41,689 nucleotides of DNA, from assembly GCA_028293565.1 (NCBI GenBank), contig JAQGON010000162.1:1-41689 (forward strand), read 5' to 3'. Position 1 is the first letter of the stretch, and each line of letters starts with the position of its first letter. Under the pieces are notes generated by a model, which was not told the origin of the DNA, searched no databases, and saw only the letters and a program-made list of their open reading frames with translations. Positions 5,990 to 39,291 of this stretch are shown here, in pieces. The stretch comes from Verrucomicrobiota bacterium. Its GTDB lineage: Bacteria > Verrucomicrobiota > Verrucomicrobiia > Opitutales > Opitutaceae. A program made the position numbers and the translations under genes.

Positions 5990-6068
5990 CCTCGGCTGCT
6001 ACGTGGCTCGGGGATGCGGCGGCGCTTTCGCACGGTGCCCGGCCCGCCCCGTGACCTCGGCTGGTGCC
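5981..6068. repeat. REP-like repeats, copies B1 and B2 (direct pair)
   Basis: Two copies in the same orientation, 65 bases apart: 5981-6003 (CCTCGTGACCTCGGCTGCTAC) and a diverged one at 6046-6068 (CCCCGTGACCTCGGCTGG). They are the reverse complement of copy A (1611-1634). B1 keeps the CTAC (complement of GTAG) end; B2 has lost it. B1 supplies the stop codon of the LacI-type gene. Confidence 0.7.
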
Positions 6069-6102
6069 TGCGTTTCGCGACGCGTCAGTTTCGTCTGGCA
6101 TT

Positions 6103-6113
6103 TTGTAGGACAA
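6103..6113. promoter_or_regulatory. Predicted GntR/FadR-subfamily operator
   Basis: TTGTAGGACAA fits the published FadR-subfamily pattern TNGTNNNACNA at every fixed position and is a perfect 4-3-4 inverted repeat. It lies 36 bases before the start codon of a FadR-type GntR gene, where an autoregulatory operator is expected. A second symmetry, CATCG (6122-6126) and CGATG (6134-6138), lies between it and the gene. Binding by this regulator is an inference. Confidence 0.55.
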
Positions 6114-6149
6114 TGGTCATCCATCGATCCGACCGATGATTTTTTCCCG

Positions 6150-7756: not shown

Positions 7757-7770
7757 TCGAACGCCCCACC

Positions 7771-10385: not shown

Positions 10386-10396
10386 GGCGGAGTGGC

Positions 10397-11569
10397 TCAC
10401 GGGACGCGACGGATCTCGACCTTCACCGGCGCGCGGATCCGCGCCGCGCAGGCGGCGACATAGTCGGTCCACGACTTCTCCGTCGCGAATTCACCGGCCT
10501 TCGACCAGCCGGCGCCGACATAATAACGAAGGGGCTGTCCCGGCCTGGCCCTGGCCAGAATGAGCTGGTTGAGCGCATCCTCGGCATAACCGGCGAACGC
10601 ATCGCGCGGCACGATGATCGCGAGGCCAAGCTGGCCATCCGTTTTCTGCACCGACCACTGCGCGAGCGAGCCGTCCGCCGGCATGGGCGCGAGATGCACG
10701 GCCGCTTCCTGGTCCTTGTCGGCCAGATCCTTGTTCAGGCCAAGGCCGACCGTGAGCTCCTTCGCCGAGCCCTCGACGACGTCAAACGTGCTTTCGATCT
10801 CGTCAAGGTTGTGGCCGGCGTCGACGGTGAACCGTTTGGTTTCGGCGACTTTGAAACCGCCCGCGTCCCACGCGTCGTAGGTGAGTTCGAAGACCACGCG
10901 GATCGGACCCTCGGCGGTGATCCGCCACGAGCTGTAGTTGCGGCTCACGGCAAGAGTCCGCCCGTCCCAAATGCCGGTGCCGCCGCAGCCGCGTGAGGGG
11001 CCGACGTGATACATGTCCAATCCCTCGCCGCTGTCGGTGTGGTAATGGCCCCGCCGGTACCACCGGTCGACGATCAGGTCCGGGACGCGCTTGCACCAGA
11101 CATCGAGGCCGCTCGTCACGAGGAAGTCTTTTCCGGCGGCCGGCGTCGCGAGCGCCGGGCCGTAAGTCCGGTGGCCGACCTTGTCGTTTTCCCAGGCAAA
11201 ATCGTCGAAGCGCTCGGGCACGTGGCGCGCAAAGACCTTCGCCGGGAACGCCGGCGCGAGCCCGGCGGTCTTCTCGACGGTGAACGTCGCGGCCTGCTCG
11301 CCCGGCGCAAAGTCGTGCTGGAAAATCAGGCCGGCCCCGGCGTCCACCTGGCAGGGAAGCACGCGGCCGCCGTCATCCTTGACCGCGACCTGCTGCGGCG
11401 CCGCGCCCGGCAGCGCGCGCAAGATGCCGGACCACGGGACCACGATGGTTTCGGCGGGCCGGGCGATCGCGAGCTCGTGCGTGACGGAAATCATGGCGCG
11501 CTCCGCCGCCCGGCCGAGCGCCGGCAGGGCCAGGAGCGAGCGAAGGAGGAGCTTTCCGGACGGTTTCAC
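10397..11569 (-). CDS. DUF4861 family protein (exported)
   Basis: About 390 residues. The FARHVPERFDDFAWENDK motif and the following TYGPAL segment are typical of DUF4861, a family of secreted or periplasmic proteins often found in pectin and other polyuronide loci; no reaction is assigned here. I chose the GTG at 11569, which gives a plausible signal peptide (VKPSGKLLLRSLLALPALG) and a 13-base gap after KduD. An ATG at 11620 is in frame but overlaps the KduD gene by 38 bases; an internal ATG starting MISVTHEL is a third option. Neighbours are KduD upstream and the MFS carrier downstream, supporting a job in uronide breakdown. Confidence 0.75.
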   Translation of the reverse strand: MKPSGKLLLRSLLALPALGRAAERAMISVTHELAIARPAETIVVPWSGILRALPGAAPQQVAVKDDGGRVLPCQVDAGAGLIFQHDFAPGEQAATFTVEKTAGLAPAFPAKVFARHVPERFDDFAWENDKVGHRTYGPALATPAAGKDFLVTSGLDVWCKRVPDLIVDRWYRRGHYHTDSGEGLDMYHVGPSRGCGGTGIWDGRTLAVSRNYSSWRITAEGPIRVVFELTYDAWDAGGFKVAETKRFTVDAGHNLDEIESTFDVVEGSAKELTVGLGLNKDLADKDQEAAVHLAPMPADGSLAQWSVQKTDGQLGLAIIVPRDAFAGYAEDALNQLILARARPGQPLRYYVGAGWSKAGEFATEKSWTDYVAACAARIRAPVKVEIRRVP

Positions 11570-11582
11570 GACGTGGGAAAGG

Positions 11583-12350
11583 TCACCGCGCGAGCCATCC
11601 GCCGTCGACGGCCAGCGCATGACCGTGGACGTAATCGGAGGCCGGCGACGCCAGAAAAACGACGGCCCCTTTCAGGTCGGCTCCCGCGCCCCAGCGGCCG
11701 GCGGGAATTCGTTCGAGGATGGCGCGGTTGCGCTTCTCGTCGGCGCGCAGCGCGGCGGTGTTGTCGGTCGCCATGTAGCCGGGGGCGATGGCATTGACGT
11801 TGATGTTTTTCGCGGCGAGCTCGTTGGCCATCAGCCGGGTGAGGCCGAGGAGCGCGCTCTTCGCGGCCGTGTAGGACGCCACGCGCACGCCGCCCTGGAA
11901 CGAAAGCATCGAAGCGATGTTGATGATCTTGCCGGGCCGGCCGCCGGCGAGGAGGGGGCGGACAAAGGCCTGGCTGAGGATGAACGCGGCGTTGAGGTTG
12001 ACGTTGATCACGTCGTCCCAGTCCTTCTCGGAAAAGTTCTCGAACTCGCCGCGCCGGATGATGCCGGCGTTGTTGACCAGGATATCAAGGGGACCGGCGA
12101 ATCTGGTCGCCGTGGCGATGAGGGTCGTCGCGGCGGCGCGCTCGCCGAGATCGGCCCGGATGACTTCGACCCGCCGGCCCAGCGCCTCGATGCGCACGCG
12201 GGTTTCCGCACAGGAGCTGGTCGCGACCAGCACGAGGTCGGCCCCGGCTTCGGCGAGCGCTTCGGCGCAGGCCCGGCCGAGACCGCGCGAGGCGCCGGTG
12301 ACCAGCGCGGTCCTGCCGTCGAGCTTGAAGGAGTCGAGCAGCGAACTCAT
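11583..12350 (-). CDS. kduD: 2-dehydro-3-deoxy-D-gluconate 5-dehydrogenase
   Basis: 255 residues; classical short-chain dehydrogenase. The NAD(P) motif TGASRGLG is at 18-25, NNAG at 93-96, and the catalytic S147, Y160 and K164 are present (IASMLSF, SYTAAK). KduD reduces 2,5-diketo-3-deoxygluconate to 2-keto-3-deoxygluconate in the cytoplasm. The assignment rests on the N-terminal LDSFKLDGRTALVTGA and VNAIAPGYMATDNT pattern typical of KduD and on the KduI gene directly upstream (7-base gap). The open frame continues past the ATG at 12350, but that part overlaps KduI. It is followed closely by the DUF4861 and transporter genes in one likely operon. Confidence 0.9.
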   Translation of the reverse strand: MSSLLDSFKLDGRTALVTGASRGLGRACAEALAEAGADLVLVATSSCAETRVRIEALGRRVEVIRADLGERAAATTLIATATRFAGPLDILVNNAGIIRRGEFENFSEKDWDDVINVNLNAAFILSQAFVRPLLAGGRPGKIINIASMLSFQGGVRVASYTAAKSALLGLTRLMANELAAKNINVNAIAPGYMATDNTAALRADEKRNRAILERIPAGRWGAGADLKGAVVFLASPASDYVHGHALAVDGGWLAR

Positions 12351-12357
12351 GCGGCAA

Positions 12358-13188
12358 TCAGAGAAGGTCGGCGAGCGGCGCGGGATCCATGTCGGCAAAC
12401 TCCTGGTTTTCGCCGCCCATGCCCCAGACGAACCCGTAGGCGGCCGTGCCAGCGCCGCAATGAACGGACCACGGGGGCGAAAGCACGGCTTCGAGATCGC
12501 GGACGACCAGGTGCCGGGTCGATCTTGGTCCGCCCATGAAATGGAACACGGCTTGGGCGGGCGGGACGTCGAAATAGAGATAAACCTCGGAGCGGCGCAG
12601 GTGCGTGTGCGGCGGCATCGTGTTCCACACGCTGCCCGTCTCAAGCCGGGTGAATCCCATGACGAGCTGGCAGGTGGGAAACGCCGCGGGATGGAAGATC
12701 TTGAACAGGGTTCGCTGGTTGGCGTTCTCGCGGGCTCCGAGCGAAATTCCCGCGACGTCGGCGAAGCCCACCCGGCGCGTCGGATAGGCGGCATGGGCCG
12801 GATACGAGAGAAGATAGAAACGCGCGGGCGCGGCGGCGGAGGACGAGGCGAACACGACTTCCCTCACGCCGCGGCCCACGTAAAGCGCATCGAGATTTCC
12901 GAGCGGATGGTCGACGCCGTCGACGCGGACCGATCCGGCGCCGCCGAGGTTGATGATGCCCGCCTCGCGCCGCTCGAAAAAAAAGGCCGCGCGCAGGGCC
13001 GGAAAATTGGGGAGCACCAGCGGCGCCGCGAGCGGCACCGCTCCGCCGAGGACGGTGCGATCCGTTTCCCAGCCGCGCAGGTGGATCTCGCCCGGGCGGA
13101 AAAGCCCGGCGACGAGGAATTGCTGGCGCAGTTCCTCGGGGGCGAGCGTGGCGGCGAGAAGGCTCTGGGGATTATCCGGAAGGTTCAT
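12358..13188 (-). CDS. kduI: 5-dehydro-4-deoxy-D-glucuronate isomerase
   Basis: 276 residues, the normal length. KduI converts 5-keto-4-deoxyuronate (from unsaturated uronic acids) to 2,5-diketo-3-deoxygluconate. The cupin zinc ligands are all visible: H194 and H196 (PPHTH), E201 (SEVYLYF) and H243 (SVHCG), almost at the numbering of the E. coli enzyme. The ATG at 13188 was chosen because the frame upstream is unlike the family. GH88 upstream releases its presumed substrate and KduD downstream uses its product, so three consecutive steps lie side by side. Confidence 0.95.
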   Translation of the reverse strand: MNLPDNPQSLLAATLAPEELRQQFLVAGLFRPGEIHLRGWETDRTVLGGAVPLAAPLVLPNFPALRAAFFFERREAGIINLGGAGSVRVDGVDHPLGNLDALYVGRGVREVVFASSSAAAPARFYLLSYPAHAAYPTRRVGFADVAGISLGARENANQRTLFKIFHPAAFPTCQLVMGFTRLETGSVWNTMPPHTHLRRSEVYLYFDVPPAQAVFHFMGGPRSTRHLVVRDLEAVLSPPWSVHCGAGTAAYGFVWGMGGENQEFADMDPAPLADLL

Positions 13189-13265
13189 GGTGGGTTGGAC
13201 CGAGCAGGACCGCGGAGGGAGGCGAATCCGGAAACAGGCCGGCGGATTGGCCGCGGCCCGAAATC

Positions 13266-13302
13266 TTCCGCAAATCCGCATTCATTCGTGCCCATTCGCG
13301 GC
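13266..13302. repeat. Dispersed 'CGAATG'-type repeat overlapping a gene end
   Basis: Read on the minus strand it has the pattern CGCGAATGGGCACGAATGAA and then TGCGGATTTGCGG, an (A/G)CGAATG-rich string of a type often found between genes in Verrucomicrobiota (recalled, not searched). It encodes the last residues (ANGHE) and the TGA stop of the GH88 gene. Confidence 0.45.
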
Positions 13303-14508
13303 CGGGAGACGGGCCAGCCGCGCCTTGGAACGCAGCAGCGCCTCGAGGAAATAATAGTCGGCGTAGTTGATCGGGACATCGACCTCGTCGCGCTTCGGAA
13401 AATTTCCCGTCGAGTGCATGAGCAGGAAACCGTGGTTTTCGCCGGGCTTTGCGCGGTAGGCCGGCGAGGCGAGCGAGCGCAGCTGCTGTTCCGCGACCGC
13501 CGCGTAACGGCCGGCCGCGGCGGGCTCCACATTGTCGCTCAGCTCCAGCAGCGCCGAACACATGATCGCGGCCGCCGACGCATCGCGCGGGGCGGCGGGG
13601 ATGTCCGGCGCGTCAAAGTCCCAATAGGGAATCTTGTCGGCGGGGAGACGCGGGTGGTTCACGAGAAAGTCGGCGATTTTTTTCGCCTGCTCGAGATAGC
13701 GCCGGTCGCGCGTCTCCCGATACATCATCGTGAAACCGTAAAGACCCCACGCCTGGCCGCGCGCCCAGGCCGATTCGTCGGCCGCGCCCTGGTGCGTGAC
13801 ATGCAGCAGCGGCTTGCCGGTGACGGGGTCGTACGCCACGACATGATAGCTGCTGCCGTCGGCGCGAAAATGGTTGCGCAGCGTCGTATCGGCATGGGCC
13901 ACGGCGATCTCGCGATAACGCGGCTGGTTCCCGGCGCGCGCCGCCCAGCAGAGGAGCTCCAGGTTCATCATGTTGTCGATGATGACGGGAAAGGCCCACT
14001 GCCCGTGATCCCAGGACTTGATGCTGCCGACGGTGGCGTTGAAGCGGGTGCTCAACGACTCGGCGGCGGCGAGGAGGACCTCGCGATCGTCGGCATCTCC
14101 GGCGAGACGGAGAGCGTTGCCATAGCTGCAATACAACATGAAGCCGAGATCGTGGGTGTGCCGGTTCTCCTTCATGGCTTTCAGTCCCGCGGTGGCCGTG
14201 GCTGCGGCCATCCGCCATTTCGGATCTCCCGTCGCCTCGAACAAATACCAGAGCGAGCCCGGAAAAAAACCGCTGGTCCAGTCGGACGCAGGCACGAGAG
14301 TGATCTCGCCCTTGGCGACCGAACGGGGATATCCGGGCCTGCCCTCCAGGCTGGAGAGCATGAAGGCGTATTGCGCGGCCGAGAACTCCAGGCTGTCGCG
14401 CACCACCTCCCGCATCGGCGGTTCCGCGGCGGCGGCCAAGGGGACGGAGCCCGCCAGCAGGAGCGCGAGAAACGAAGCGAGGCGGGGAATTTTCTTCGGT
14501 GGGCTCAT
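13282..14508 (-). CDS. Glycoside hydrolase family 88, unsaturated glucuronyl hydrolase-like
   Basis: 408 residues with a signal peptide (about 1-28, ending AAAAE), so exported to the periplasm. GH88 enzymes hydrate the double bond of the 4,5-unsaturated uronic acid left by a lyase, freeing the uronate. Both key Asp residues of the family are present: D120 (HTHDLGFM) and D178 (IIDNMMNLEL), with the WTSGFFPG and HQGAADESAWARGQAWG segments typical of the alpha/alpha barrel. Two conserved Asp residues favour GH88 over the related GH105. It lies 9 bases after the response-regulator stop and upstream of KduI/KduD. The final residues come from a dispersed repeat (13266-13302). Confidence 0.9.
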   Translation of the reverse strand: MSPPKKIPRLASFLALLLAGSVPLAAAAEPPMREVVRDSLEFSAAQYAFMLSSLEGRPGYPRSVAKGEITLVPASDWTSGFFPGSLWYLFEATGDPKWRMAAATATAGLKAMKENRHTHDLGFMLYCSYGNALRLAGDADDREVLLAAAESLSTRFNATVGSIKSWDHGQWAFPVIIDNMMNLELLCWAARAGNQPRYREIAVAHADTTLRNHFRADGSSYHVVAYDPVTGKPLLHVTHQGAADESAWARGQAWGLYGFTMMYRETRDRRYLEQAKKIADFLVNHPRLPADKIPYWDFDAPDIPAAPRDASAAAIMCSALLELSDNVEPAAAGRYAAVAEQQLRSLASPAYRAKPGENHGFLLMHSTGNFPKRDEVDVPINYADYYFLEALLRSKARLARLPAANGHE

Positions 14509-14517
14509 GGCTCGACC

Positions 14518-15147
14518 TCAATAATGGATGATCCCGCGCTGGACCGCCACGATGACCGCCTGCGTGCGGTCGAGCACGCGCAATTTGCCGAGGATGCTTT
14601 TCAGGTGGCCCTTGGTGGTGTGCTCGGTGATCCCGAGGATGTCGGCGATTTCCTTGTTGGCCATGCCGCGGGACAGCTGCAGGAGGACCTCGTGTTCGCG
14701 GGCCGTGAGCTCCTCGTAGGTGTTGCGCGAATGGAGCCGGGTCGCGATCTCCTGCGGAATCCACCGCCGGCCCAGCGCCACCGCGTTGATCGCCGGGATC
14801 AGCTCCTCGCCCGTCACGCTCTTCAACACATAACCCCGCGCGCCGGCTTCCAGAGCCATGTGGATGTCGGCGTCGCCCTCGAACGCCGAGAGCATGAGGA
14901 TGCGCGCATCGGGATCGAGCGCCCGGATGCATTGCGTGGCCTCGTGCCCGTTTTTTCCCGGCAGCCGCAGGTCCATCACCACCAGATCGGGCCGCAGCGC
15001 CTTGAACTGCCGGATCGCCTCGTCGCCGTCGCCGGCCTCCCCGACCACGGTGAGATTCGGCTCCGTGCTGATCAGCGACAGCAGGCCGGTCCGGACGATG
15101 AAATGATCGTCCACGACCAGGATGCGGATTTTATCCGTCGCGTTCAA
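14518..15147 (-). CDS. NarL/FixJ-type response regulator
   Basis: 209 residues. The receiver domain (about 8-125) has the acidic pair DD at 13-14, the phospho-accepting D59 (VVMDLRLPG) and K109-like lysine (YVLKS). A LuxR-type helix-turn-helix is at about 143-195 (LTAREHEVLLQLSRGMANKEIA). The start overlaps the stop of the sensor kinase by 4 bases, so the two form a cognate pair. Being located between the GH2-lyase and GH88 genes, it probably controls the uronide genes. Confidence 0.95.
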   Translation of the reverse strand: MNATDKIRILVVDDHFIVRTGLLSLISTEPNLTVVGEAGDGDEAIRQFKALRPDLVVMDLRLPGKNGHEATQCIRALDPDARILMLSAFEGDADIHMALEAGARGYVLKSVTGEELIPAINAVALGRRWIPQEIATRLHSRNTYEELTAREHEVLLQLSRGMANKEIADILGITEHTTKGHLKSILGKLRVLDRTQAVIVAVQRGIIHY

Positions 15148-17372
15148 AGGACCGCCTTGGTCGTGGGTGCATCCGCTTCCACCGCGTGGCCGCGCAGCGG
15201 AATCGTGGCGCGCACCATCGTCCCTTCGCCCGGCGGACCGGAAACGTCGAGCCGGCCCCCGAGCCGCTTCGCGCGCTCGGTCATCCCGAGCAATCCGAAG
15301 TGCTGTTCGCCGCGGTCGGAAACCCGGGCGGCGACGAGGCCCGAGCCGTTGTCCCTGATCTCCAGCGCCACTTCGTCGGGCCGGAACATCAGCTGGAGGG
15401 TCGCGGCCGTCGCGCCCGAATGCCTGACCACGTTGGCCAGCGATTCCTGCGCGATCCGCAGCAGGTTGTCCTCGACGATTTCCGGCAGCCGCTGCCGCTC
15501 GCCGACGGTGCTGACCTCGACCGTGATGTTGCTGCCCGCCATGATCTGACCGCTCGCGATCGACAGGGCCTGCGTGAGGTCGAAGAGTTCCAGCTCCCGC
15601 GAGCGCAGATCCCAGATCGAGCGGCGCAACTCCAGGCGGCTCTGCCGGAGAAACCGCCGCGCCAGCTCGATCGGCTGCGCGGCGTCGGCGGGATTCCTTT
15701 CGAACAGCTTCACCGCGGTGTCGAGCTGCAGCATGATGCCGGTCAGCGCCTGCTCCAGCGTGTCGTGCAGCTCGCGGGCCAGCCGCGTGCGTTCCGTGAG
15801 GACGGCGCGGAACTCGACCTCGGCCGCCTTGCGGACGGACATCTCGATCTTGAGCTGGTCGGTGCGCTCCTTGACGCGCGCCTCGAGCTGGTCGTGCGCG
15901 AGCTGCAGCTCCCGCTGGGCCTTCTCCCGCTCCGCGACGAGGAAGCTGAGCATCGCATTTTTCTTCGAGACCGTGAGCAGCCAGACCGCGAGCGCCGCCA
16001 GCAGCGCGCCGACGACGGCGAGGCCGATGAGGAGACGCTGCGCCGTCAGCCAGCTGGGATTCTCGATCACGCGGAGGTCGTCCGCCTTCGGCAGCAGGAG
16101 GTTCACCGCCCTGGGCCGGCCGTCGTCACCGGACTCGAACGACGCGATGCCCTGCACCTCGACGAGGCTGCCGAGCGGCGCCGCGGTGATGCCGCCGCTC
16201 TCCTGCAGCCCCTCATACTCCGCGGTGAACGACTGCTCGCTGTGCCGGATCGTGCAGACGGTGCGCACGCCGACAAAGCCCGCCTCCTCGCGCCGGACCT
16301 GGCGGACGCTGTGATCCAGGAGGATTCCCCGCAGCACGATCAGTTCGCCGCCGTGCAGGCCCTCGCGCAGTTCCGTCATCGGCACCGGCTTCGGCGCGAC
16401 GACCGACCACGGCGCCGCGACTTCGCGCACCACGGCGTCGCGCAGGACCGGCTGGTAGTTGATGATCTCGAGGAACCCCACCGCCTCGATCGGCGTGCCC
16501 GCGAGGAGCTGGATCGGCTGGCGGGACTCGAGGTGCAGCCCGCCGGTTTCGTCCTGGATGAAAAGATCGAGGCCCGGGCGCTGGCAGGTGACCACGCCCT
16601 TCACGTGCAGCCGTTCGCCGAGATTGCTGCTCGTCCGGAATTTCGCGAGGTCGCCGATCGCCAGGGCCGGCTGGTCGAACGGCGGGTGCGACTCGGGCTC
16701 CTCGATCACGAAGTCCTCCTCCGTCGGCACAAAGAGATTCACCGCCGTGAGCTGGCGGCGCGCAGCATTGAAGGCCGTGCCGACCGTGCCGCGGGCGCGG
16801 ATCTTGGCGGCGACGAGCGAGCGGGGGCTGAGCCGGGAGGACAGCTTCGGGAAAACCCGCACGCGGTAGCCGCCGATGGAAATTTCGACCATCGTCTTCT
16901 GCGACGCGACATACGTGACCGAGCGGACGAGGCCGGAGATCTCGATGCGCTGGCTCGCCTCCACGCCGGCCATCAAGCGCTCGATCGAGACCTGCTTGGC
17001 CGGCGGCAGCGGAGCCGTGCCCAGTTTTTTCCAGCTCGTGGACTGGATCACCGGCGCGAACCACCCCGCGCCCGTCTGGCCGCTGACCTCGAGGTAGTCG
17101 CCGATCTCCGGCTGCGGCCCGATGTTCTGGACAAAGATTCCGGCGCTCTCGTCCTGGACGACGAACTTGCCGCTCCAGTCGGGCTCCGCCGCGGTGACGA
17201 CGCCGCGGATCGTGGCGCGGAGGTTCGAGCTCGCCTCGCTGGTGGACAACGCCCGCACTTCGGCCGCCGTGGTCAGAACCCGCCCCGCGGCCGACTGCGC
17301 CGCCAGCGGCGGCGCGCCCGCGAACAGCATCGGGGCAGCCATCGCCAGAATCAGTAAAGCCGAACGACGCAT
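15144..17372 (-). CDS. Sensor histidine kinase with OB-like extracytoplasmic repeats
   Basis: About 742 residues: signal peptide (1-26), a long extracytoplasmic part (about 30-440), one membrane helix (about 447-467), a coiled-coil linker, a HisKA_3 domain with phospho-acceptor H536 (ARELHDTLEQ), and a HATPase domain near the C-terminus (IRDNGSGL, HFGLLGMTERA). The sensor part contains repeated beta-rich units with the pattern RGVVT...FVVQDESAGIFVQ and KGVVT...LFIQDETGGLHL, and a third weaker one (LRGILLD...); these look like OB-fold-type modules seen in verrucomicrobial kinases. The start was set at ATG 17372 because it begins a signal peptide; ATG 17499, 8 bases after the GH2-lyase stop, is an alternative. 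It is paired with the response regulator by a 4-base overlap. Confidence 0.9.
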   Translation of the reverse strand: MRRSALLILAMAAPMLFAGAPPLAAQSAAGRVLTTAAEVRALSTSEASSNLRATIRGVVTAAEPDWSGKFVVQDESAGIFVQNIGPQPEIGDYLEVSGQTGAGWFAPVIQSTSWKKLGTAPLPPAKQVSIERLMAGVEASQRIEISGLVRSVTYVASQKTMVEISIGGYRVRVFPKLSSRLSPRSLVAAKIRARGTVGTAFNAARRQLTAVNLFVPTEEDFVIEEPESHPPFDQPALAIGDLAKFRTSSNLGERLHVKGVVTCQRPGLDLFIQDETGGLHLESRQPIQLLAGTPIEAVGFLEIINYQPVLRDAVVREVAAPWSVVAPKPVPMTELREGLHGGELIVLRGILLDHSVRQVRREEAGFVGVRTVCTIRHSEQSFTAEYEGLQESGGITAAPLGSLVEVQGIASFESGDDGRPRAVNLLLPKADDLRVIENPSWLTAQRLLIGLAVVGALLAALAVWLLTVSKKNAMLSFLVAEREKAQRELQLAHDQLEARVKERTDQLKIEMSVRKAAEVEFRAVLTERTRLARELHDTLEQALTGIMLQLDTAVKLFERNPADAAQPIELARRFLRQSRLELRRSIWDLRSRELELFDLTQALSIASGQIMAGSNITVEVSTVGERQRLPEIVEDNLLRIAQESLANVVRHSGATAATLQLMFRPDEVALEIRDNGSGLVAARVSDRGEQHFGLLGMTERAKRLGGRLDVSGPPGEGTMVRATIPLRGHAVEADAPTTKAVL

Positions 17373-17506: not shown

Positions 17507-20500
17507 TCACGGTCGATCCTTCGCGGCCACGGGCGCCCGCAACCACAGCAGCGGCTGCGTCACCGCCATGTTGCGCCGCACCTCCCGATCCGCCGGCTCG
17601 GCCGGCAAACGCCGCCACAGTTCGAGATACTCCGGGCGATTCAGCCGCTCGCCTGCGAGGAGAAAAGCAGGCTGGCGCACCGGCCAGCCCTCGAAATGCG
17701 CGAGGTCCCGCGCGAACGGCCACGTCCCCCGGTCCGCCACATACGGATAGAGGAACGCCACCGCCTGCGCCACGCTGCGGCCGTCGGGCAGCGACGCGGT
17801 CCAAAGATTTTCAGACGGAGTGGAGAGGACGTCCGTCAACAAGGCGACGTTGTCCAGCTGGAAGATCGAATAACCGTATGGCTTGGTCCGCGCGAGTTCC
17901 CGCGGGAAACTTCCATCCGGCGCCAGCTGTCCCGGCAGGATGGCCTCGAGGAAAACCTGGCGGGCCTCGTCCAGCGCCGCGGCGTTTCCGGTGAAGCGCG
18001 CAAAGACGGCGACCTGGAGGTAATAGGCGACGCTGTGGTTGTTCGTCGCCGCGGCTTCCTTGCGCCCGTTCGGATCGGTGAGCATCCAGGTCAGGTAATC
18101 GGAAAACCAGGCGCGGACCGCCTGGATCGTCGCGGGGGAGACGCCCGGGGCGCCGGCGATCGCCGAAGCCGCCAGCGGCACTTCGACGAGATGCAGCGTG
18201 TCGATGATTCCATAACTGCGTCCCGCGGTCACGCCCAGCACCGCCTGGGCGAAGCGCAGGTGCGGGTTCATCCGCGTGCCGGCGTCGACAAAGAAGACCT
18301 GCAGCCAGTCGGCCGCGCGCCGCGCATATGCGGCATCTCCTGACACCAGATACGCGGCGGCCAGCAGGGAGACCGTGTCCCGCATTTCGCGCATTATCCG
18401 CCGGTGGTCGTCGAAGTTGTCCGGGTTGGTCTCCCCGTCGCGATTGACGTAAGGCAGGCCGTCCGGCGTTTTCGGATTTGGCCAGAAATAATCGGCCATC
18501 GAATAAAAATCCCCGGGAGCGACACCCGATGCTGCAGCGGACGCCGGCGGCGGCGCCGAGCGCAGCGAGAGAGGTCGTGTTTCCATGACGAGCGCGGCGC
18601 GCTGCAGCAGGCGATCGCGGTCGAGGGCCGCGATTTTGGCCGCGAGTTGCTCCCGCGTGATGGCCGGCGCTTCCGATTCCCGCGTCGCGCCCGCGGGTCG
18701 ATCGATCCGCAGGAATTCAACCGGCACTTTGGCGACCGAGGCGCTCACCACGGCGCGGCCGTGCGGCGGCACTGCGACGTCGATCCGCGCGCGCCCATTG
18801 GCCAGCTGCACCCGTCGCGAGCCTCCCGCGGTGCCGAGGTTGTCGAGGAGCCGCCCGTCGCCCGCCTGGCCGAACCGCACGAAATCGGCGGCGTCGAGGC
18901 AGACGACACCGGCCGCGTCGAGCAGCTCCACCTGCGCATGCACGCGGTCGTTTTCCGCCGGCAACTCCTGCATCCGGAGATGATGCGGCGGGCCCCACGG
19001 CCGGGTTTCGTAGCGGAAAAGCGTCTCGTCGCTCACCGTGGCGCCGTGGCTTCGTCCGATGGCGCGGAGCGTGTTCATGCCCGCGTTGAACGGCAGCTCC
19101 CAGCGCAGTCCGGCCGCGGGAAAATCCTGGCTCGCGCGACGGCGCACGCCTTGGGTCGCGCCGTTCAGCCACAGTTCAACCTCCTCGCAGTTCGAGTAGA
19201 CCTTCACCGTGCGCCGCTCGGCGGGCCGGCCCCAGCGCACGGGCCAGGAGTGCCCGTAGATGTGCACCATGGGTTCCTGCGTCCAATAGGATTGGTAGAC
19301 ATAGAACGACTCCTTCGGCGTCAGGTCCCGCTCCACGGCGCCCTTCTGGTTCACGAAGGGCACCGGGTTGTCCGGCCGCAGCGGCGTCGCGAAGTCCTTG
19401 AAGGGCCACATCGCCGAGCCCGTCAGCCAGTCCATTTTTTCCTGCTCCTTCAGATGCCAGTCCACCAGGTCGCAGAGATAGGTTTCCGACCAGTCGCCAT
19501 CGCGCGAGACGCGGTCGCTGCCGCCGACGTCCATGAAGTCGAGCCCGCGCTCGTCCGCCGCGCCGGTCCCCTTGACCTCGCGCAGCTTCGCCGAGGGATC
19601 CTCGGCATGCCGGCCCGCGTGGCTGTCGCCGCCCCACTCGACGTGGAGAAAATGTTTCACGCGGGCCTGCTCCTTGCGCGCGGCCTCCCGATAGTCGGTG
19701 AACGGCCCGCGGTACCAGCCGGCCCAGATCGACGGCGAGTAGACGTCCACGATGTCGCGGCAGAAATCGCAGCGCCTCAGCGCCGTCAGGCGCGCCGGGT
19801 CGAGCGCATGCGCCAGCTCGTGCAGCTCGCGCACGAACGCGCGGATGCCCTCCTGGTCGAATGCCGGGAAATCGCCCGGCCAGTCGTCCTCGTTGCCGAC
19901 GCCCCAGAGGATCACGGCCGGATGGTTGCCATGCTGGTCGATCATCGCGCGCAACATGCCCCGGGCCTGCGCCCGGTAGCGCTCGCCGCCGAGGCCGCCG
20001 CGACACCAGGGAATCTCCTCCCAGACCAGGATGCCGAGCTCGTCGCACAGCTCGAGAATCCGGCGTGGCTGCTGGTAATGGCCGAGGCGGATGAAATTCA
20101 CCCCCATGGACTTCATCAGCCGCATCTCCGCCTCCATCATCTCGTCCGTCATCGCCGCCCCCACCCCCGCATGATCCGCGTGGCGGTGCGTGCCGCGCAG
20201 CAGCAGCCGCTCGCCGTTCAATTTGAACGGACCGTGATCGATGAACTCGAACGAGCGCAGCCCGAAGCGTTCCCAGACCCGGCTGCTGCCCGCCGGACCC
20301 GTCGCCGTCACCTCCACGCCGTAGAGGGCCGGCGATTGCGGCGACCAGAGCTGCGCGTTCCCGAGGACAATCGCGGGCAGCGTCTGCGGTTCCGTCGAAG
20401 GTTTCAGCTGCAGCCTCGCGTGCGCGGCTTCGCGGCCGTCCGGACCGACAATGCGGACGGCAAGCGTTTGTTCGTCGGAAGATCCGGCCGCAAAGCGCGC

Positions 20501-21229
20501 GCTCAGCCCGATGCGCCAGGTGCCGTCAGGCTGCCGCTCCGGCATCGCATGCACGCGCATCAGCCCGGCGGCGGGCAAATAGACGAGACGGACGCGGCCA
20601 TACAGGCCGCCGTAACGGTTGAAGTCACTCAGGCTCGACGGAATCATCTCGAGGTCGCGCGAATTGTCACACCGCACCGCGAGCGGGATCCGGCCCGGGC
20701 TCACGCGATAATCGGCGGCCGGCATTTTCGCCAGCGCCGAGGCACGATAGGCCGCGACGGCATCGGTGATGTCGACCAGGAATTCGTCGTAGCCGCCGAC
20801 GTGCTCGCCGACCTGCCGATCGCCAATCCACACCGCGGTCTTTTGTCCGCTGCCCTCGAAATGCAGCAGCGTGCGTCCGCTGGCGTGCGGATTTTCGATC
20901 GCGAGCTCGGTCCGATACCATGCGGGCCCCTGGTAATACGGCGCGTCCGGATCGACGGAATCCACGGCGTTGACACAATGCGGCAGCGTCACGGCCGTCC
21001 ACCGCGGCAGGCCCAGCGCCCGGTTGTCGCTGCGGAGCGTTTCCCAGATGCCGCCCAGATCGCCGCGCACGTATTCCCAATTTTGCGCCAGGGTGGTTTG
21101 ATCGCGCCAGTCGCTCGGCGGCACCCGGGCCGGAGCCGGCTCCGCGGCCGGAGACTGGACCGCCGCGGCGAAGAGCGCGGCCGCCGCCGGCAACCGGAGG
21201 AACGAAAATGGATTTCGCGAAAGAAGCAT
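17507..21229 (-). CDS. GH2 glycosidase fused to alginate-lyase-family (PF05426-like) domain
   Basis: About 1240 residues. A signal peptide (MLLSRNPFSFLRLPAAAALF...) starts at ATG 21229; ATG 21280 is a less likely alternative. Residues about 40-840 are a GH2 enzyme: sugar-binding jelly roll, Ig-like domain, then a TIM barrel with acid/base E near 447 (GVGNEDDW) and the probable nucleophile E near 531 (HVEWGG). GH2 includes beta-galactosidases and beta-glucuronidases. From about residue 855 to the end a second, alpha-helical domain follows: ADYFWPNPKTPDGLPY, RMNPHLRFAQ, TNNH near 1063 and GYSIFQLDN near 1120, which match the gene at 27544-28626 and the alginate lyase family. No frameshift, stop or internal start suggests two genes. 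The two activities would be exported as one chain. Confidence 0.85.
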   Translation of the reverse strand: MLLSRNPFSFLRLPAAAALFAAAVQSPAAEPAPARVPPSDWRDQTTLAQNWEYVRGDLGGIWETLRSDNRALGLPRWTAVTLPHCVNAVDSVDPDAPYYQGPAWYRTELAIENPHASGRTLLHFEGSGQKTAVWIGDRQVGEHVGGYDEFLVDITDAVAAYRASALAKMPAADYRVSPGRIPLAVRCDNSRDLEMIPSSLSDFNRYGGLYGRVRLVYLPAAGLMRVHAMPERQPDGTWRIGLSARFAAGSSDEQTLAVRIVGPDGREAAHARLQLKPSTEPQTLPAIVLGNAQLWSPQSPALYGVEVTATGPAGSSRVWERFGLRSFEFIDHGPFKLNGERLLLRGTHRHADHAGVGAAMTDEMMEAEMRLMKSMGVNFIRLGHYQQPRRILELCDELGILVWEEIPWCRGGLGGERYRAQARGMLRAMIDQHGNHPAVILWGVGNEDDWPGDFPAFDQEGIRAFVRELHELAHALDPARLTALRRCDFCRDIVDVYSPSIWAGWYRGPFTDYREAARKEQARVKHFLHVEWGGDSHAGRHAEDPSAKLREVKGTGAADERGLDFMDVGGSDRVSRDGDWSETYLCDLVDWHLKEQEKMDWLTGSAMWPFKDFATPLRPDNPVPFVNQKGAVERDLTPKESFYVYQSYWTQEPMVHIYGHSWPVRWGRPAERRTVKVYSNCEEVELWLNGATQGVRRRASQDFPAAGLRWELPFNAGMNTLRAIGRSHGATVSDETLFRYETRPWGPPHHLRMQELPAENDRVHAQVELLDAAGVVCLDAADFVRFGQAGDGRLLDNLGTAGGSRRVQLANGRARIDVAVPPHGRAVVSASVAKVPVEFLRIDRPAGATRESEAPAITREQLAAKIAALDRDRLLQRAALVMETRPLSLRSAPPPASAAASGVAPGDFYSMADYFWPNPKTPDGLPYVNRDGETNPDNFDDHRRIMREMRDTVSLLAAAYLVSGDAAYARRAADWLQVFFVDAGTRMNPHLRFAQAVLGVTAGRSYGIIDTLHLVEVPLAASAIAGAPGVSPATIQAVRAWFSDYLTWMLTDPNGRKEAAATNNHSVAYYLQVAVFARFTGNAAALDEARQVFLEAILPGQLAPDGSFPRELARTKPYGYSIFQLDNVALLTDVLSTPSENLWTASLPDGRSVAQAVAFLYPYVADRGTWPFARDLAHFEGWPVRQPAFLLAGERLNRPEYLELWRRLPAEPADREVRRNMAVTQPLLWLRAPVAAKDRP

Positions 21230-21445: not shown

Positions 21446-22501
21446 TCACGAGAACAGGGCGAGGGGTTCGAAAGCGCGGCCGAGCACCGCGGTCGTCGAC
21501 GTGCGCAGCCACCGTTCGGTGACGGTCGCCAGGACGCGGCGGAAATCCAGCGGCTCGCCACCGACCCGGCCGTGGAAACCGCCGCGCACCCTCGCTCCCA
21601 GCAGCAAGACCGGCCCGGCCTCGCCGTGATCGGTGCCGCCCTGCGCGTTCTCGGCCGCGCTTCGGCCGAACTCGCTGAACACGACGGTCAGCACGCGATG
21701 GTCCACCCCGCGGCGCTCGAGGCGGCGCTGCAGGGCCAGCAAGGCGTCCGCCGCGAAGCCGAGCCGGGCGGCGTGCTGCGCGCCCTGATCGAAGTGCGTG
21801 TCGAAGCCCGGGATGGAAACGAAATAGACTTCGGCGCCCGCAACGCCTCCCGCGCGCTCGCCGATCTCGGCCAGCTGCACGGCGGCGTCCGCGCCGGCAT
21901 GCGCGAGCGGCTGGCGCATTTCTCCCCTCACCGCCGCGCCCGAATGCAGCCGGTCCTCGTCGCGGACAAAAACCCGCGGCATCGCCCGTCCGCCGTGATA
22001 CGCGGCGACCGGCGGCGACTGTGCTTCAAGCTCGGCAAATGTCCGGCCCAGCCATCCGGAATAGAGCCGCTCGTCGGAATCGCTCGCCGTGTGCCAGATC
22101 TCGGTGGAGCGAAAGTGACTCGGGCTCGGGTTCGCGCAACCGACGCCCGGCACCACGGCCAGCTTGCCGTCCTTGAAGAGGGGCTCGAGTCCCCTCCCCG
22201 CACGAGCCAATCCCGCTGACCCGTCGAGCCGGATGAGATCGTGCCGCGCCAGTGCCAGAGTCGGGCGCAGCCGGTAATATCCGTCGTCCGCCAAGGGCAC
22301 GAAGGTGCTCGCTCCATCGTGTCCGCCCTCGAGTTGAATCAAGATCAGCGCGCGCGGCTCGGCGGCGTCTCCGGTCTCGCTCCGGCGTCCGGCCGCGAAC
22401 ATCCGCGGCGCCAGGCCGCCCACGGCGCAGGCTGCGAGCCCGCAGCCGAGTTGGTGGACGAACTCGCGGCGCGTAGGCAACGGAGTGGACCGGCCTTTCA
22501 T
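21446..22501 (-). CDS. DUF1501 family protein with Tat signal
   Basis: 351 residues. The N-terminus has a twin-arginine signal (TRREFVHQLGCGLAACAVGG), so it should be exported folded. DUF1501 is a distant relative of the alkaline phosphatase/sulfatase fold; metal-ligand-like motifs are GFDTHFDQ (D234, H236) and GGTDHGEAG (D291, H292). The family often sits beside DUF1800, but no such gene is seen here, and the protein is somewhat short for the family. Its ATG overlaps the GH1 stop by 4 bases, so it is translated with GH1. No reaction is known; in this setting it may act on a decorated sugar or in surface assembly. Confidence 0.82.
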   Translation of the reverse strand: MKGRSTPLPTRREFVHQLGCGLAACAVGGLAPRMFAAGRRSETGDAAEPRALILIQLEGGHDGASTFVPLADDGYYRLRPTLALARHDLIRLDGSAGLARAGRGLEPLFKDGKLAVVPGVGCANPSPSHFRSTEIWHTASDSDERLYSGWLGRTFAELEAQSPPVAAYHGGRAMPRVFVRDEDRLHSGAAVRGEMRQPLAHAGADAAVQLAEIGERAGGVAGAEVYFVSIPGFDTHFDQGAQHAARLGFAADALLALQRRLERRGVDHRVLTVVFSEFGRSAAENAQGGTDHGEAGPVLLLGARVRGGFHGRVGGEPLDFRRVLATVTERWLRTSTTAVLGRAFEPLALFS

Positions 22502-23886
22502 ACGAGGGCGTTGCCGCGGATCACGCGGGAATACCAGTGCGCGCTGGCTTTGGGCGTGCGGACCTGGGTCTTGAAATCGTTATAGACCAAACCAAAGCGC
22601 CGGTCGTAACCGTCAGCCCATTCAAAGTTGTCCATGAAGGACCACGCAAAATAACCGCTGACCCGGTTGCCGTCGGCGATCCCGCGCCGCAGCTCGCGCA
22701 GGCAGGCGCGAAGGTAGTCCAGGCGGTGCAGATCGAGGACCTCGCCGTCGACCGGCGGGGCGTCGTCATAGCCGGCGCCGTTTTCCGTGATGACGACCTC
22801 CTTGACGCCGTAAACCTCCGCCGCTTCGCGCGGGCCCCAATAAAGGCCGCGCGGATTCAGCCGCAGCCACGGGCTGTCGGCCGTCGGATAGTGGCCGGGA
22901 TAAGGCACCACCTGCGGCTTTCCGCCGGGACCCTGGCGGACGCACGTTCCGGAATAGATGTTCATGCCGAGAAAGTCCGTCGGCTGCGCGATCAGCTCGA
23001 AGTCCCCCGGCGCGATCTGCGGAAGCCAGCCCGAGGTGAACGCGAGATAATCCGGGCCGTAGCCGCCGCGATAGATCGGCTCGAGGATGCGGCAGTTCTT
23101 CGATCCGACAAAATGCCGCTTCGCGGCCGCGATGTCCTCCGGCGTCTCGGCGAGCGGAATCGCCACCGTGGAATTGTCGGTCAAGCCCACGCGTGCGCCC
23201 GCGCCTCCGTGCTGGCGGACGGCGCGGACGCCGTGGCCGTGGCAGAGCAGCGCATGGTGGAACGCCTGGTTGACCACCCCGGCCGGTTCCTTGCGGCCCG
23301 GCGCGTGGCGGCCGCTGCCGTAGCCGTTGTCGAGAAACACCTCGATCTCGTTGAGCGTGATCCAGTGCTTCACGCGATCGCCGTAGGCCTTGACGATTTC
23401 GTCGGCGTAATCGGCGAAGGTGTCCGCCACGAGCCGCATCGGCCAGCCGCCCCTGGCCTCGAGCGCCTGCGGCAGATCCCAGTGAAACATCGTCACCCAC
23501 GGCGTGATCCCGCGCTCGAGCACCGCATCGATCAGCCGGTGATAAAAATCCAGTCCGCGCCGGTTCACGCTCCCGACGCCGTCCGGCATGATGCGCGGCC
23601 AGGCGATCGACAGCCGGTAGTTCTTCATCCCGAAGGCGGCCATCAGGTCGAAGTCCTGCCTGAAGCGATGATAGTGATCGCAGGCGACGGCGGGCGTGTC
23701 GCCGTTGTGCACGGCGCCCGGACGCTTCGCGAAGACGTCCCAGATCGAAAGGCCCTTGCCCTCCTCTTCGGCCGCGCCCTCGACCTGCGCCGCAGCCGCG
23801 GCGACGCCCCAGACGAAACCGGACGGGAAGGCCGACGGCGAGACCGCGGCGGCCCTCGCGGTCATTTTTTCCTTCGAGTCCTTCAT
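22498..23886 (-). CDS. Glycoside hydrolase family 1 (beta-glucosidase-like)
   Basis: 462 residues, the usual GH1 length. FVWGVAAAAAQVEGA near the N-terminus and the nucleophile motif VITENG (E368) identify the family. The acid/base glutamate is E180 in TLNEIEVF; most GH1 enzymes have NEP here, so the Pro is replaced by Ile. Other conserved elements are present (FHWDLPQAL, YFAWSFMDNFEW, RFGLVYNDF). No signal peptide is seen from ATG 23886, so it is probably cytoplasmic or periplasm-independent; ATG 23865 is an alternative start. It is the first gene of the minus-strand run and overlaps the DUF1501 gene by 4 bases. Substrate is unknown; a beta-linked disaccharide is expected. Confidence 0.93.
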   Translation of the reverse strand: MKDSKEKMTARAAAVSPSAFPSGFVWGVAAAAAQVEGAAEEEGKGLSIWDVFAKRPGAVHNGDTPAVACDHYHRFRQDFDLMAAFGMKNYRLSIAWPRIMPDGVGSVNRRGLDFYHRLIDAVLERGITPWVTMFHWDLPQALEARGGWPMRLVADTFADYADEIVKAYGDRVKHWITLNEIEVFLDNGYGSGRHAPGRKEPAGVVNQAFHHALLCHGHGVRAVRQHGGAGARVGLTDNSTVAIPLAETPEDIAAAKRHFVGSKNCRILEPIYRGGYGPDYLAFTSGWLPQIAPGDFELIAQPTDFLGMNIYSGTCVRQGPGGKPQVVPYPGHYPTADSPWLRLNPRGLYWGPREAAEVYGVKEVVITENGAGYDDAPPVDGEVLDLHRLDYLRACLRELRRGIADGNRVSGYFAWSFMDNFEWADGYDRRFGLVYNDFKTQVRTPKASAHWYSRVIRGNALV

Positions 23887-23990
23887 GACTGGAAAAAAGC
23901 ACAGCACGGCAAAACCGTCACGGAACGCAAACCCCGGAAGGCTTTGCCCCCAAGCGGCCCTCGCCGGCAAAGCCGCACTCCCGTCGCGCC

Positions 23991-24264: not shown

Positions 24265-24384
24265 GGAGGGATGTGAGCGGGACGGGCGCGGACTACAGTG
24301 ACGAAGAAATGCTTCCCCCGTGACGTCCCCTCGTCACGCCCCCCGACCCGCGACACCCCTCGCGTCCCTGCCTTCTCAAGACCC

Positions 24385-27300
24385 ATGCACCCCCACCACC
24401 CTGCCACATTCCGCTTCTTTTCCGCCGCGGGCCTCGCGCTCGCCTTCGCGCTGCCCGGCTTCGCCCAATCCACGGGGACCATCACCGGGCATGTCTTCAA
24501 CACCGTTAACAAGGAATTTGTCCGCGATGCGGACGTGCACGTCGGGAACACCAACATCACGGTCCCGACGGAAAGCGGCGGCTACTTCAGCCTGGCCCGC
24601 GTCCCGGCCGGCAAGGCGACCGTCACCGTGACCTACACCGGCCTCGCCCCCGCCTCGGCCGAGATCGAAGTCGTCGCGGGCGAAACGGTCTCGCACGAGT
24701 TCGAGCTGGGGCGCCCGGTGGCCGCCAAGCCGGGAGCGGCGGACACGGATCTCGTCAAGCTGAACGCCTATGTCGTCACCTCCGAGAAAGACGGCAACGC
24801 CAAGGCGCTCCAGCACCAGCGCAATTCCATGAACATGAGCCGATCGGTCGCCTCCGACGCGTTCGGCAATGTCACCGAGGGCAACGTCGGCGAGTTCCTC
24901 AAGTACCTGCCGGGGGTCGCGCTCGAATACTCCGAGGCCGACACCCGCGGTCCCCGCCTCGGCGGCATGAGTTCGGAATATGCCAGCGTCACCCTTGACG
25001 GAAAGAGCATCGCCAGCGCCGACGCGTTCTCGCAGTACACCGGTTTCGAGAATTCCGCCGCGGGCACGGCGAACCGCTCGTTCGGGTTCGACTCGATTTC
25101 GATCAACAGCATCGAGTCGATCGAGATCAACCGCGTCACCAGCGCGGCGATGGATGCCAACGCCCCGTCCGGCAACATCAACCTGATCACGAAAAAGGCC
25201 TTCGACCTGAAAGGCCGCCACATCGGCGTGTCCTTCGGCACGGTCTTCAATTCGGATCAGTTCACGCTGAAGCGGACGGTCGGCCCGGGCGACCGCTCCG
25301 GCCGCAAGTTCAAGCCGAACTTCACCGTGAATTATTCCGACATCTTTTTCCACGACACGCTGGGCGTGGTCATCAGCCTCCAGGAATCCAATCTCTACAA
25401 CGAGCAGTACCGGATCGATCATAACTACAACCGGACGCCGGCCGCGCCCGACACGCGTGGCCAGGTGCTGACCTCCGTGCTGCTCAAGGACGGGCCCAAG
25501 TGGACGGAGCGCGGCAGCGTCGGCGCGACCTTCGACTACAAGGCCACCTCCAGCCTCACGCTGTCGCTGACCGCGCTGTTCGCCCGCTACCACGCCACTT
25601 TCTACAACCGCCAGGTCACGATGACGGCGGGCGGCACCCGCGCGACCGAGCCGGGCGACGGCGTGCTCAGCTTCGGGAGCGCCACGCCCACGGGCGGGAG
25701 CATCGTCTTCGGCGGCGGCAATGGCGACAAATTCACCAACACCCTCACCCTCGCGCCCAGTTTCGAATATCGCCGGGGCAACGTGACCGTCGACGGCTCC
25801 TTCACGTCGTCCCACTCGCGCAACGACTACGACAACCTCGCGAAGGGCACGGTGGCCAACACCACCGTGAACAACCTCACCGGGGTGGGCTTCACCGCCG
25901 TGCGGTCGAGCGCCGACAGCGCCGACTGGAAAATCAGCCAGACCGGCGGGAGCAACTGGACCGACCTCTCGCTGCAGAAGAACCCGCGCATTTCCGACGA
26001 CAACCGCCAGAACACGATCGATATCAGGTCGGGGGATTTTAATTTCAAGTACGTCCTGCCCTTCAGGCTGCCGACCTTCGTTCAAACGGGCGTCAGGAGG
26101 ACACGGGATTCGCAGGACGCCACCGACACGAGAACCTATGAAAAGTGGCTGTTCACCGGGCCGGGGGGCGGAACCACCGGGTCGTTCGCGAACTACCTTT
26201 CGCCGTTTGTGCTCTATCAGGGCCGGAACCAGCCCGGCGTGCAGTTCAGCGCCCTTGGGGGCGGAGGCGCGCCGGCTTTCCCGGATCGCGACACGCTGGG
26301 AGAGCTCTTCCACAGCCACCCCGAGTATTTCCTCCGGAGCCTTCCGGCGAGCAGCACCGTGGCCGGCACCTCCGGCATGAGCCTCGCCGATTACGAGAGC
26401 GGCCGCTACCTGAACGTCCCGACCTACGACATCTCCGAGACGGTCTCCGCCGGCTACGTGATGGCCAACATGAGGATCGCGAAACTCCAGGTCCAGGGCG
26501 GCTTTCGCTACGAGAAGACCGACCTCGATGCCTCGGAAATGAACCCGTATTCAAATTCCCAGGTCGCCGCGGCGGGTTACGCGATGACGGCCCCGGTCGC
26601 CCCGGCGAGGGTGGGCGTTCCCAACAGCACGGCCGCGATCGATTACAAATATTCGCGGCCGCGGGTCGCGCGCCATTCCGATTACCATGACCTCTTCCCG
26701 AGCCTCACCGCAAAATATTCGTTCACCCCGGACCTGCTCGGAGACATCGGCTGGGGCAAGGCGATCAAGCGTCCCGACCTGAAGAACATCACCGGCACGC
26801 GCCAGATCAACGACGACACCGGCCAGGTCACCACGCCCAATCCCAACCTCCAGCCCGAACGCTCGGAAAAGGTCGTCGCCTCGCTCAGCTATTTCTTCGG
26901 CAGCAGCGGCATCAACAACGTGCAGGTCGTGGCCAGCCACACCAAGGTGACAAACCAAACCCTGTCCAAGACCATTTCGTCGGAGGAATACGGCAACACC
27001 GACCCCGCGCTAAACGGCTACGACTTCATCAGCTTCACCAACATCGCGGCGCCGGTGATCTACAACTCGATGGAGTATTCCTATCAGCAGTACCTGTCGT
27101 TCCTGCCGCGCTGGTTCCAGAGCACGTCGGTCAGCGCGTCGTACACCCGCACTTACTACCGGGCGCCGAACAACCAGCGGCTGTGGGGCGTCGTGCCCAA
27201 TTCGCTCAAGGGCACCCTCGGCTGGCGTTATGGTCGGGTCGGCGTCAGTTTCAGTGCCATCTGGGACGACGACGCCAACTGGCTCCAGGGCACTCCCAAC

Positions 27301-37709: not shown

Positions 37710-37719
37710 GGCTTCCTGC

Positions 37720-38088: not shown

Positions 38089-38094
38089 CTCCCC

Positions 38095-39255: not shown

Positions 39256-39291
39256 ACGTCGGAAAAACCGTTTCAGCCTAATTATCCTCTC

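Follow-up and report, generated by a model that had tools for sequence, protein, structure and literature searches.

The window analyzed here is a 41,689-nucleotide stretch of a Verrucomicrobiota bacterium of the family Opitutaceae (assembly GCA_028293565.1, contig JAQGON010000162.1, positions 1 to 41,689). On its minus strand, at positions 17507-21229, lies a single gene whose 1,240-residue product combines a signal-peptide-like start, a GH2 glycoside hydrolase, a short linker and a PF05426/PL38-type polysaccharide lyase. An earlier note, made from the sequence alone, had described a continuous frame of about 1240 codons with one signal peptide, leaving the strand unstated. The frame indeed comprises exactly 1,240 codons with zero internal stops, from the ATG at 21229 to the stop codon at 17507-17509, with a second in-frame ATG at 21280. 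By eye only, the N terminus resembles one signal peptide.

The Pfam search that the note had proposed recovered both parts. The GH2 domains PF02837 (residues 62-163), PF00703 (233-325) and PF02836 (332-542) all scored above their cut-offs, DUF4982 was found at residues 674-732, and PF05426 covered residues 906-1170 (E 6.7e-71, 239 bits against a cut-off of 22). The GH2 motifs that had been read in the N-terminal part are present, GNEDDW starting at residue 445 and HVEWGG at 529. The claims about the lyase motifs held in part: TNNH (1062) and YGYSIF (1118) occur in the fused protein, whereas the separate gene at 27544-28626, which had been said to share the pattern, reads YYWPDP, KNNH and SYSAF. 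That gene does encode a PF05426 lyase, as claimed. We modelled residues 30-1229 of the fused protein from a 21-row alignment, with middling confidence (mean predicted local distance difference test score 75.4, predicted template modelling score 0.62). The match to beta-glucuronidase (GUS) structures stops at about residue 845 and the first modelled lyase helix begins at about residue 859, so the linker between the halves is short.

The two halves of the fused protein

The GH2 part (approximately residues 30-842; 18704-21142, minus strand) is marked by its Pfam domains, its conserved residues and a structural match in VIA. Its sequence assigns it to the beta-glucuronidase type represented by Parabacteroides merdae PmGUS and Bacteroides uniformis beta-glucuronidase 3 (BuGUS-3), and it is a predicted glucuronidase. 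A phmmer search against the PDB returned 6d7j (E 1.2e-299) and 6d1p (E 7.1e-287), and Foldseek gave 52-54% identity to PmGUS and BuGUS-3. The VIA comparison of the modelled GH2 part with 6dxu yielded Z 33.9 and a root-mean-square deviation (rmsd) of 3.0 over 765 aligned residues, at 50% identity. The catalytic Glu447 (in GNE) and Glu531 (in HxEW) align with PmGUS and are found in every one of the 82 aligned relatives, as are Asn627 and Lys629 of the N-x-K motif (NQK). The truncated locus L026 was left out of this alignment (loci and genomes carry our L and G numbers). According to the available text of a study of GUS enzymes (PMC6351562), the corresponding Asn and Lys of E. coli GUS contact the uronate carboxylate, and PmGUS was the slowest of the panel on p-nitrophenyl (pNP)-glucuronide (kcat 0.088 per s). 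Its authors suggested a possible preference for polysaccharides among GUS enzymes that have open sites and carry carbohydrate-binding domains.

The lyase part (residues 867-1240 and the stop; 17507-18631, minus strand) is marked by PF05426 and by Tyr914, Asp931, Gln995, Asn1064, His1065 and Tyr1120. Its closest PDB entry was 3nfv (E 7e-61), followed by BoPL38 entries at E 3e-43 and weaker. The matches at E <= 0.001 comprised seven distinct sequences, namely 3nfv, whose family is not stated, and six of BoPL38. In VIA, the lyase part of the model matched BACOVA_01668 (3nnb; Z 30.4, rmsd 3.8, 336 aligned) and the PL38 lyase 8bdq (Z 30.3, rmsd 3.7, 334 aligned), with a Z range of 30.2-30.4 over the 3nfv and BoPL38 structures. 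Among structures of stated family, the lyase appears nearest to PL38. The catalytic bases of BoPL38 are given as Y298 and H243 in the available text of PMC13169297. Six BoPL38 residues singled out in that study or in PDB titles have counterparts in the fused lyase (Y91-Y914, D108-D931, Q173-Q995, N242-N1064, H243-H1065 and Y298-Y1120), each invariant in the 65 or 66 aligned lyases with a letter at the position, and the base pair H1065/Y1120 is kept in 66 of 66. The BoPL38 active-site residue H297 corresponds to G1119 (17873-17875), a column with Gly in 62 and Ser in four of the 66 sequences. Residue 1119 is a candidate specificity position.

The Pfam name of PF05426, Alginate lyase, leaves the substrate unfixed, since the PL38 activities reported so far include alginate, glucuronan, hyaluronan and chondroitin. 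An alginate-degrading enzyme, as implied by that name and by the activity of BoPL38, the closest structure of stated family, which cuts alginate, is nevertheless very improbable. The GH2 partner is of a type acting on glucuronic acid (GlcA), a sugar that alginate does not contain; the histidine at BoPL38 position 297 is replaced in all aligned lyases; and a scan of 28 window open reading frames (ORFs) brought up no other alginate-lyase family. Three chains labelled 'Alginate lyase' (4ozv, 7sa8 and 4ozw), which we take to be AlgL (PL5), matched the separate window lyase weakly (E 0.0013-0.019) and were not among the PDB matches of the fused lyase at E <= 0.001.

Recurrence of the linkage in other genomes

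To place the fusion in context, we scanned genome contigs and kept the best 80 of 139 relatives, which together with the window, G015 and G030 gave 83 loci, some of them on short contigs. Here and in the surveys below, lyase and GH88/GH105 genes were recognized by phmmer with the window and relative proteins, unless Pfam is named. The two domains were fused in 10 loci, a lyase gene lay within 300 bp in 28 and within the 10-kb flank in 20, and three loci had another or a truncated lyase gene; the linked classes are inflated in this sample, because best hits favour long matches. Nearly all of the adjacent pairs (27 of 28) follow the order of the fusion, GH2 then lyase, with gaps of -64 to 168 bp, and such side-by-side genes are found in Pedobacter and Bacteroides. 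In a strict motif search, 12 of 83 GH2 domains and six of 48 lyases did not match the pattern; the catalytic residues are intact in the aligned columns (82 GH2 domains, 66 lyases), so these misses are due to the pattern.

The earlier note had raised the possibility of a sequencing error hiding a stop between the parts. Other genomes, G824 among them, carry the same uninterrupted GH2-lyase frame at 49-72% identity, making a hidden stop or frame error unlikely; a sequencing or assembly artefact is ruled out by these continuous fusions. The survey of domain order that the note had suggested revealed fusions in the window's family, in Phycisphaerae and in Sphingobacterium. A fusion unique to the window is thereby ruled out: the GH2-lyase pairing is a recurrent cassette.

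Fused proteins occupy two places in the domain trees, one with the window's family and Phycisphaerae and one with Sphingobacterium. In both trees the 'fused' label has to change twice, and starred branches leave no way round two such changes, which speaks against a single origin of the fusion. These trees were built by a quick method (LG+G4) with long-branch warnings; L026 was left out of the GH2 tree, and G824 and the reverse-order L231 lie outside both.

We then surveyed genomes by taxon, which gives samples with less bias. The surveys include the centre genomes, which were chosen for holding the pair, and some genomes recur between samples (for example, L027 = G423 and L061 = G425 overlap with the 83 loci). 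In Verrucomicrobiota, 14 GH2 places at E <= 1e-150 were found in 13 of 387 genomes. Three are fused (window, G015 and G030), two are adjacent to a lyase (one a double lyase of 781 residues), and nine had no lyase within the stretch read. Searching the window's family with the lyase gave 26 places in 25 of 120 genomes, four of them in frames longer than 1,250 codons; the fourth of these, G824, was confirmed as a fusion. In Bacteroidota, the phylum of the Pedobacter locus L027, GH2 matches occurred in 23 of 395 genomes. Within 1.5 kb of them lay a lyase in 8 of 23, a GH88/GH105 gene or domain in 15 of 23 and either partner in 20 of 23 (7, 15 and 19 of 22 without the centre genome). Two of the three loci lacking both partners at that distance had a lyase at 3.4 and 5.0 kb.

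Two further surveys used BuGUS-3 and PmGUS as queries. With BuGUS-3, 41 places were found in 39 of 149 genomes of the genus of L061; among the best 20 of these 41, a lyase was present in 19 and a GH88/GH105 in 19, 12 of these being one lyase-GH105 protein beside the GH2 gene. With PmGUS, the order of L061 yielded 17 places in 16 of 393 genomes, and the 16 loci read, with the centre's left out, held a lyase in six, a GH88/GH105 in nine and either in 10. As a small contrast set, six loci with other GH2 types from the window's family or order (L015, L017, L018, L020, L021 and L022) showed no lyase match, in flanks of about 1.5 kb at most.

Fusions were not restricted to the GH2-lyase pair. GH2-GH88 fusions occur in L055 and L065 (Pfam), and GH105-GH2 fusions in L135, L138, L139 and L141 (phmmer). 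A lyase-GH105 fusion was found in L092 by Pfam, likewise in L101 with PF07470 below its cut-off, and in 12 proteins by phmmer, one of them cut by a contig end. The reverse order, lyase-GH2, was seen once, in L231 (1,190 residues, PF05426 at 62-343 followed by GH2). All three pairs thus occur as single proteins, which is the strongest argument that GH2, lyase and GH88/GH105 serve one glycan. A GH31-lyase fusion was found in L039.

Two further arrangements were observed among these relatives. In the genus of L061 (L228, L230, L232-L239 and L241), a lyase-GH105 fusion of about 780-800 residues stands beside a BuGUS-3-type GH2, often with a second GH2 of about 880-910 residues 2.3-3.1 kb away, which carries a malectin domain in L228. 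In L122, a double lyase (6177-8522, minus strand; two PF05426 stretches, 781 residues) lies directly downstream of the GH2 gene; it scores highly to both window lyases and may combine the window's two lyase clades.

The recurrence bears on the possibility that the halves are merely co-secreted and co-expressed and serve different substrates or steps. The two enzymes are separate proteins in most sampled genomes, and in 22 of the 83 loci the DNA examined held no match to either window lyase, as such a lack of cooperation would allow. Independent fusion arose repeatedly and in both orders, and GH2 and lyase are each fused with the same third enzyme; we therefore regard this explanation as unlikely.

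Gene neighbourhood, proposed mechanism and substrate

Co-directional genes extend over about 15 kb of the window, from a GH1 gene through the fusion to an MFS transporter. Next downstream of the fusion is a HisKA_3 histidine kinase (15144-17372, Pfam), followed, also on the minus strand, by a LuxR-type response regulator (14518-15147), a GH88/GH105-like protein (13282-14508; PF07470 at residues 74-293, 35.1 bits against a cut-off of 26.6), a KduI/IolB family protein that is a KduI candidate (12358-13281), a short-chain dehydrogenase (SDR) that is a KduD candidate (11583-12794), a DUF4861 protein (10397-11620) and the MFS transporter (9096-10472). In the listed ORF the SDR domain begins at about residue 162, and the true start of this gene is probably near 12350. 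A GntR/FCD regulator lies on the plus strand (6003-6911). Next upstream of the fusion, Pfam identified a DUF1501 protein (21446-22501, minus) and the GH1 glycosidase (22498-23970, minus), and then, oppositely oriented, a TonB-dependent receptor (24298-27501, plus) and the second, stand-alone PF05426 lyase (27544-28626, plus; E 1.1e-80).

The second lyase is 39% identical to the fused one and falls into another, starred clade in the lyase tree, which rules out recent duplication. These two are the only PF05426 matches in the whole genome, the GH88/GH105-like protein is its single PF07470 match, and UxuA is encoded on another contig. G015 has the fusion, the HisKA_3 kinase, the DUF1501 gene and the GH1 gene in common with the window, and a GH88 gene lies near the fusion in G015, G030 and G824. 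In three loci (the window, L117:12438-15467 in G015, and L023:11659-13824), a HisKA_3 kinase gene comes after the fusion, possibly reflecting dedicated regulation.

The DUF1501 gene adjoins the GH1 gene near the fusion both in the window (21446-23970) and in G015 (L117:17628-19900). DUF4861 genes are accompanied by KduI-like ones close to a GH105 or GH2 gene, both in the window and in Bacteroidota (L138, L140 and L250), and DUF4861 may be a uronate-pathway protein. A single ORF at 28727-30544 (minus strand) joins a PIG-L deacetylase domain to a family 2 glycosyltransferase domain. The plus-strand row of GMC oxidoreductase, cytochrome c, FMN-dependent dehydrogenase and Gfo/Idh/MocA genes at 35946-40335 resembles a cluster of its own for oxidizing sugars or hydroxy acids.

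On balance, we favour a serial reading, in which the lyase and an exo-glucuronidase work one after the other on a single glycan rich in glucuronate and the GH105-like enzyme removes the cap between the two steps. From the order of the domains, the conservation of the catalytic residues, the nearest folds and the recurring linkage, we infer that the fused protein would be secreted, probably into the periplasm, and would turn its two enzymes on a glycan containing glucuronate. The PL38-type lyase would cut the bond to O4 of a uronate by beta-elimination through His1065/Tyr1120, leaving a 4,5-unsaturated uronate at the new non-reducing end. The separate GH88/GH105-like enzyme (13282-14508) would take off this cap, and the GH2, with Glu447 as acid/base, Glu531 as nucleophile and Asn627/Lys629 on the carboxylate, would free the exposed saturated beta-glucuronic acid or, alternatively, that of the chain's original end. 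The unsaturated sugar would pass to KduI and the KduD-like dehydrogenase, and glucuronate to UxuA. Fusion would keep cutter and end-chewer in fixed proportion on one chain.

The earlier note had suggested that the GH2 might trim the other side of the same chain, which is unlikely. GH2 glucuronidases are exo-enzymes of the non-reducing end, the end at which the lyase leaves its unsaturated cap; both activities meet there, and the cap must go first. The recurring GH88/GH105 partner suggests a third enzyme that removes it before the GH2 acts. The exception to this polarity objection is a fragment carrying the chain's original non-reducing end.

Several observations weigh against the serial reading. 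In addition to the 22 loci without a match to either window lyase and the Gly at the BoPL38 H297 position, a lyase is fused or adjacent in only five of the 14 Verrucomicrobiota places, three being the window and two known relatives, and six of the 16 loci in the order of L061 have neither partner, several of their contigs being short. G186 holds both genes 1.27 Mb apart, and the 11 other genomes of the window's genus gave no comparable match, so the fused gene is patchy, by gain or loss. The GH105-like assignment in the window comes from a weak Pfam match, though one above its cut-off, and the model gives nothing reliable on how the two active sites face each other. The slowness of PmGUS fits a larger natural substrate, though it may also reflect another specificity. 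Finally, the neighbours vary among fucosidases, GH31, GH30 and sulfatases, and therefore pin down no single polymer.

If the serial reading holds, its substrate could take several forms. A heteroglycan (a plant, fungal or bacterial exopolysaccharide, or a saponin-like glycoside), with GlcA as only a part of the chain or as a side group, is the form we rate highest, at somewhat short of an even chance. The glycoside hydrolase partners differ by lineage, and the changing sets of fucosidases, GH30, GH31 and sulfatases found outside the window's lineage favour several related heteroglycans; for example, G015 has a GH30 gene about 3 kb away from its fusion, and another is found in L027. In the available text of PMC5966431, polysaccharide utilization loci (PULs) with PL17, GH30_4, GH105 and GH2 are proposed for beta-GlcA glycosides such as triterpenoid saponins. 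The conserved core, by contrast, is made of three uronate enzymes with a remainder that changes by lineage, and GH1 is the sole further glycosidase among the window ORFs scanned.

This conserved core is what a beta-1,4-glucuronan-like polymer would call for, since the three enzymes would then be enough to depolymerize it completely and the GH2 would in effect be an exo-glucuronanase; we give this form less credence. The enzymes that fuse with one another are mainly the lyase, GH88/GH105 and GH2. As far as the available texts go, two characterized PL38 members are glucuronan lyases (PMC13027841), and a PL38 enzyme from Akkermansia was tested on two known substrates of the family, glucuronan and alginate (PMC11790493). 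GlcA catabolism genes also adjoin relatives, with UxuA and SDR near those in L027 and L228, as expected if free glucuronate is one of the products. Pointing back to heteroglycans are the GH29/GH95 fucosidases, GH31, GH30, GH10, GH18 or sulfatases near several loci, as well as the GH31-lyase fusion.

A glycosaminoglycan or other sulfated glycan is improbable for the window, in which no sulfatase or hexosaminidase family was found among the ORFs scanned, although PL38 members with hyaluronan or chondroitin activity have been reported and a chondroitinase-B-like gene occurs in L024. SGSH_C-type sulfatases near GH2 or lyase genes in L121, L122 and L231 suggest that the substrate is sulfated in some lineages.

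When genes fuse again and again, a common target of their products is strongly indicated. The fusions and tight pairs link a GUS type that has been studied in drug metabolism and shows almost no activity on one model glucuronide (PmGUS) to a lyase and an unsaturated-glucuronyl hydrolase, turning the natural substrate of such enzymes into a directly testable question. The recurring partnership hints at the true diet of a poorly understood class of gut glucuronidases. Tentatively, and giving this less than an even chance, we extend the serial reading to suggest that the weakly drug-active PmGUS/BuGUS-3-type gut enzymes may be exo-polyglucuronidases behind a dedicated lyase rather than enzymes for drug glucuronides. 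They would form, with the PL38-type lyase and GH88/GH105, an unrecognized, widespread three-enzyme cassette for a beta-glucuronate polymer, the fused protein performing two of its three steps. Given its predicted activities, the fused enzyme could also provide one reagent for two steps.

Comparison with known systems

The family of each half is already known, and multi-enzyme carbohydrate-active proteins are a known kind. The earlier note knew of no characterization of the pairing, and in agreement we found no published GH2-PL38 pairing among the open-access papers listed, a set that leaves out most subscription papers.

PL17 shares PF05426 and has an additional heparinase II/III-like C-terminal domain. 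In the fused protein, the corresponding family PF07940 was not among the Pfam families at E <= 0.1, and no heparinase-like domain was found. The PL17-containing PULs described in the available text of a 2018 study (Sci Rep, PMC5966431) have a gene set of uronate lyase, GH2 and GH105 in common with the window, where, unlike in those PULs, the lyase is fused to the GH2.

Bacteroides ovatus CP926 BoPL38 (8bdq and the 9fht series) and BACOVA_01668 (3nfv/3nnb) share the lyase fold with the fused protein (VIA Z of about 30), at 23-29% identity on structural alignments. Unlike these enzymes, the fused lyase lacks an N-terminal signal of its own and sits C-terminal to the GH2, and it has Gly in place of BoPL38 H297.

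The closest resemblance is that of the GH2 half to P. merdae PmGUS (6dxu/6d7j) and B. uniformis GUS-3 (6d1p), with which it shares the GH2 fold over residues of about 40-845, 50-54% identity, the catalytic Glu pair and the N-x-K motif. Those enzymes were solved as single-enzyme proteins of about 800 residues, whereas the window protein carries an attached lyase. In the genus of L061, the relatives of BuGUS-3 (20 places, 52-78% identity to the query segment) mostly adjoin polysaccharide lyase and GH105 genes.

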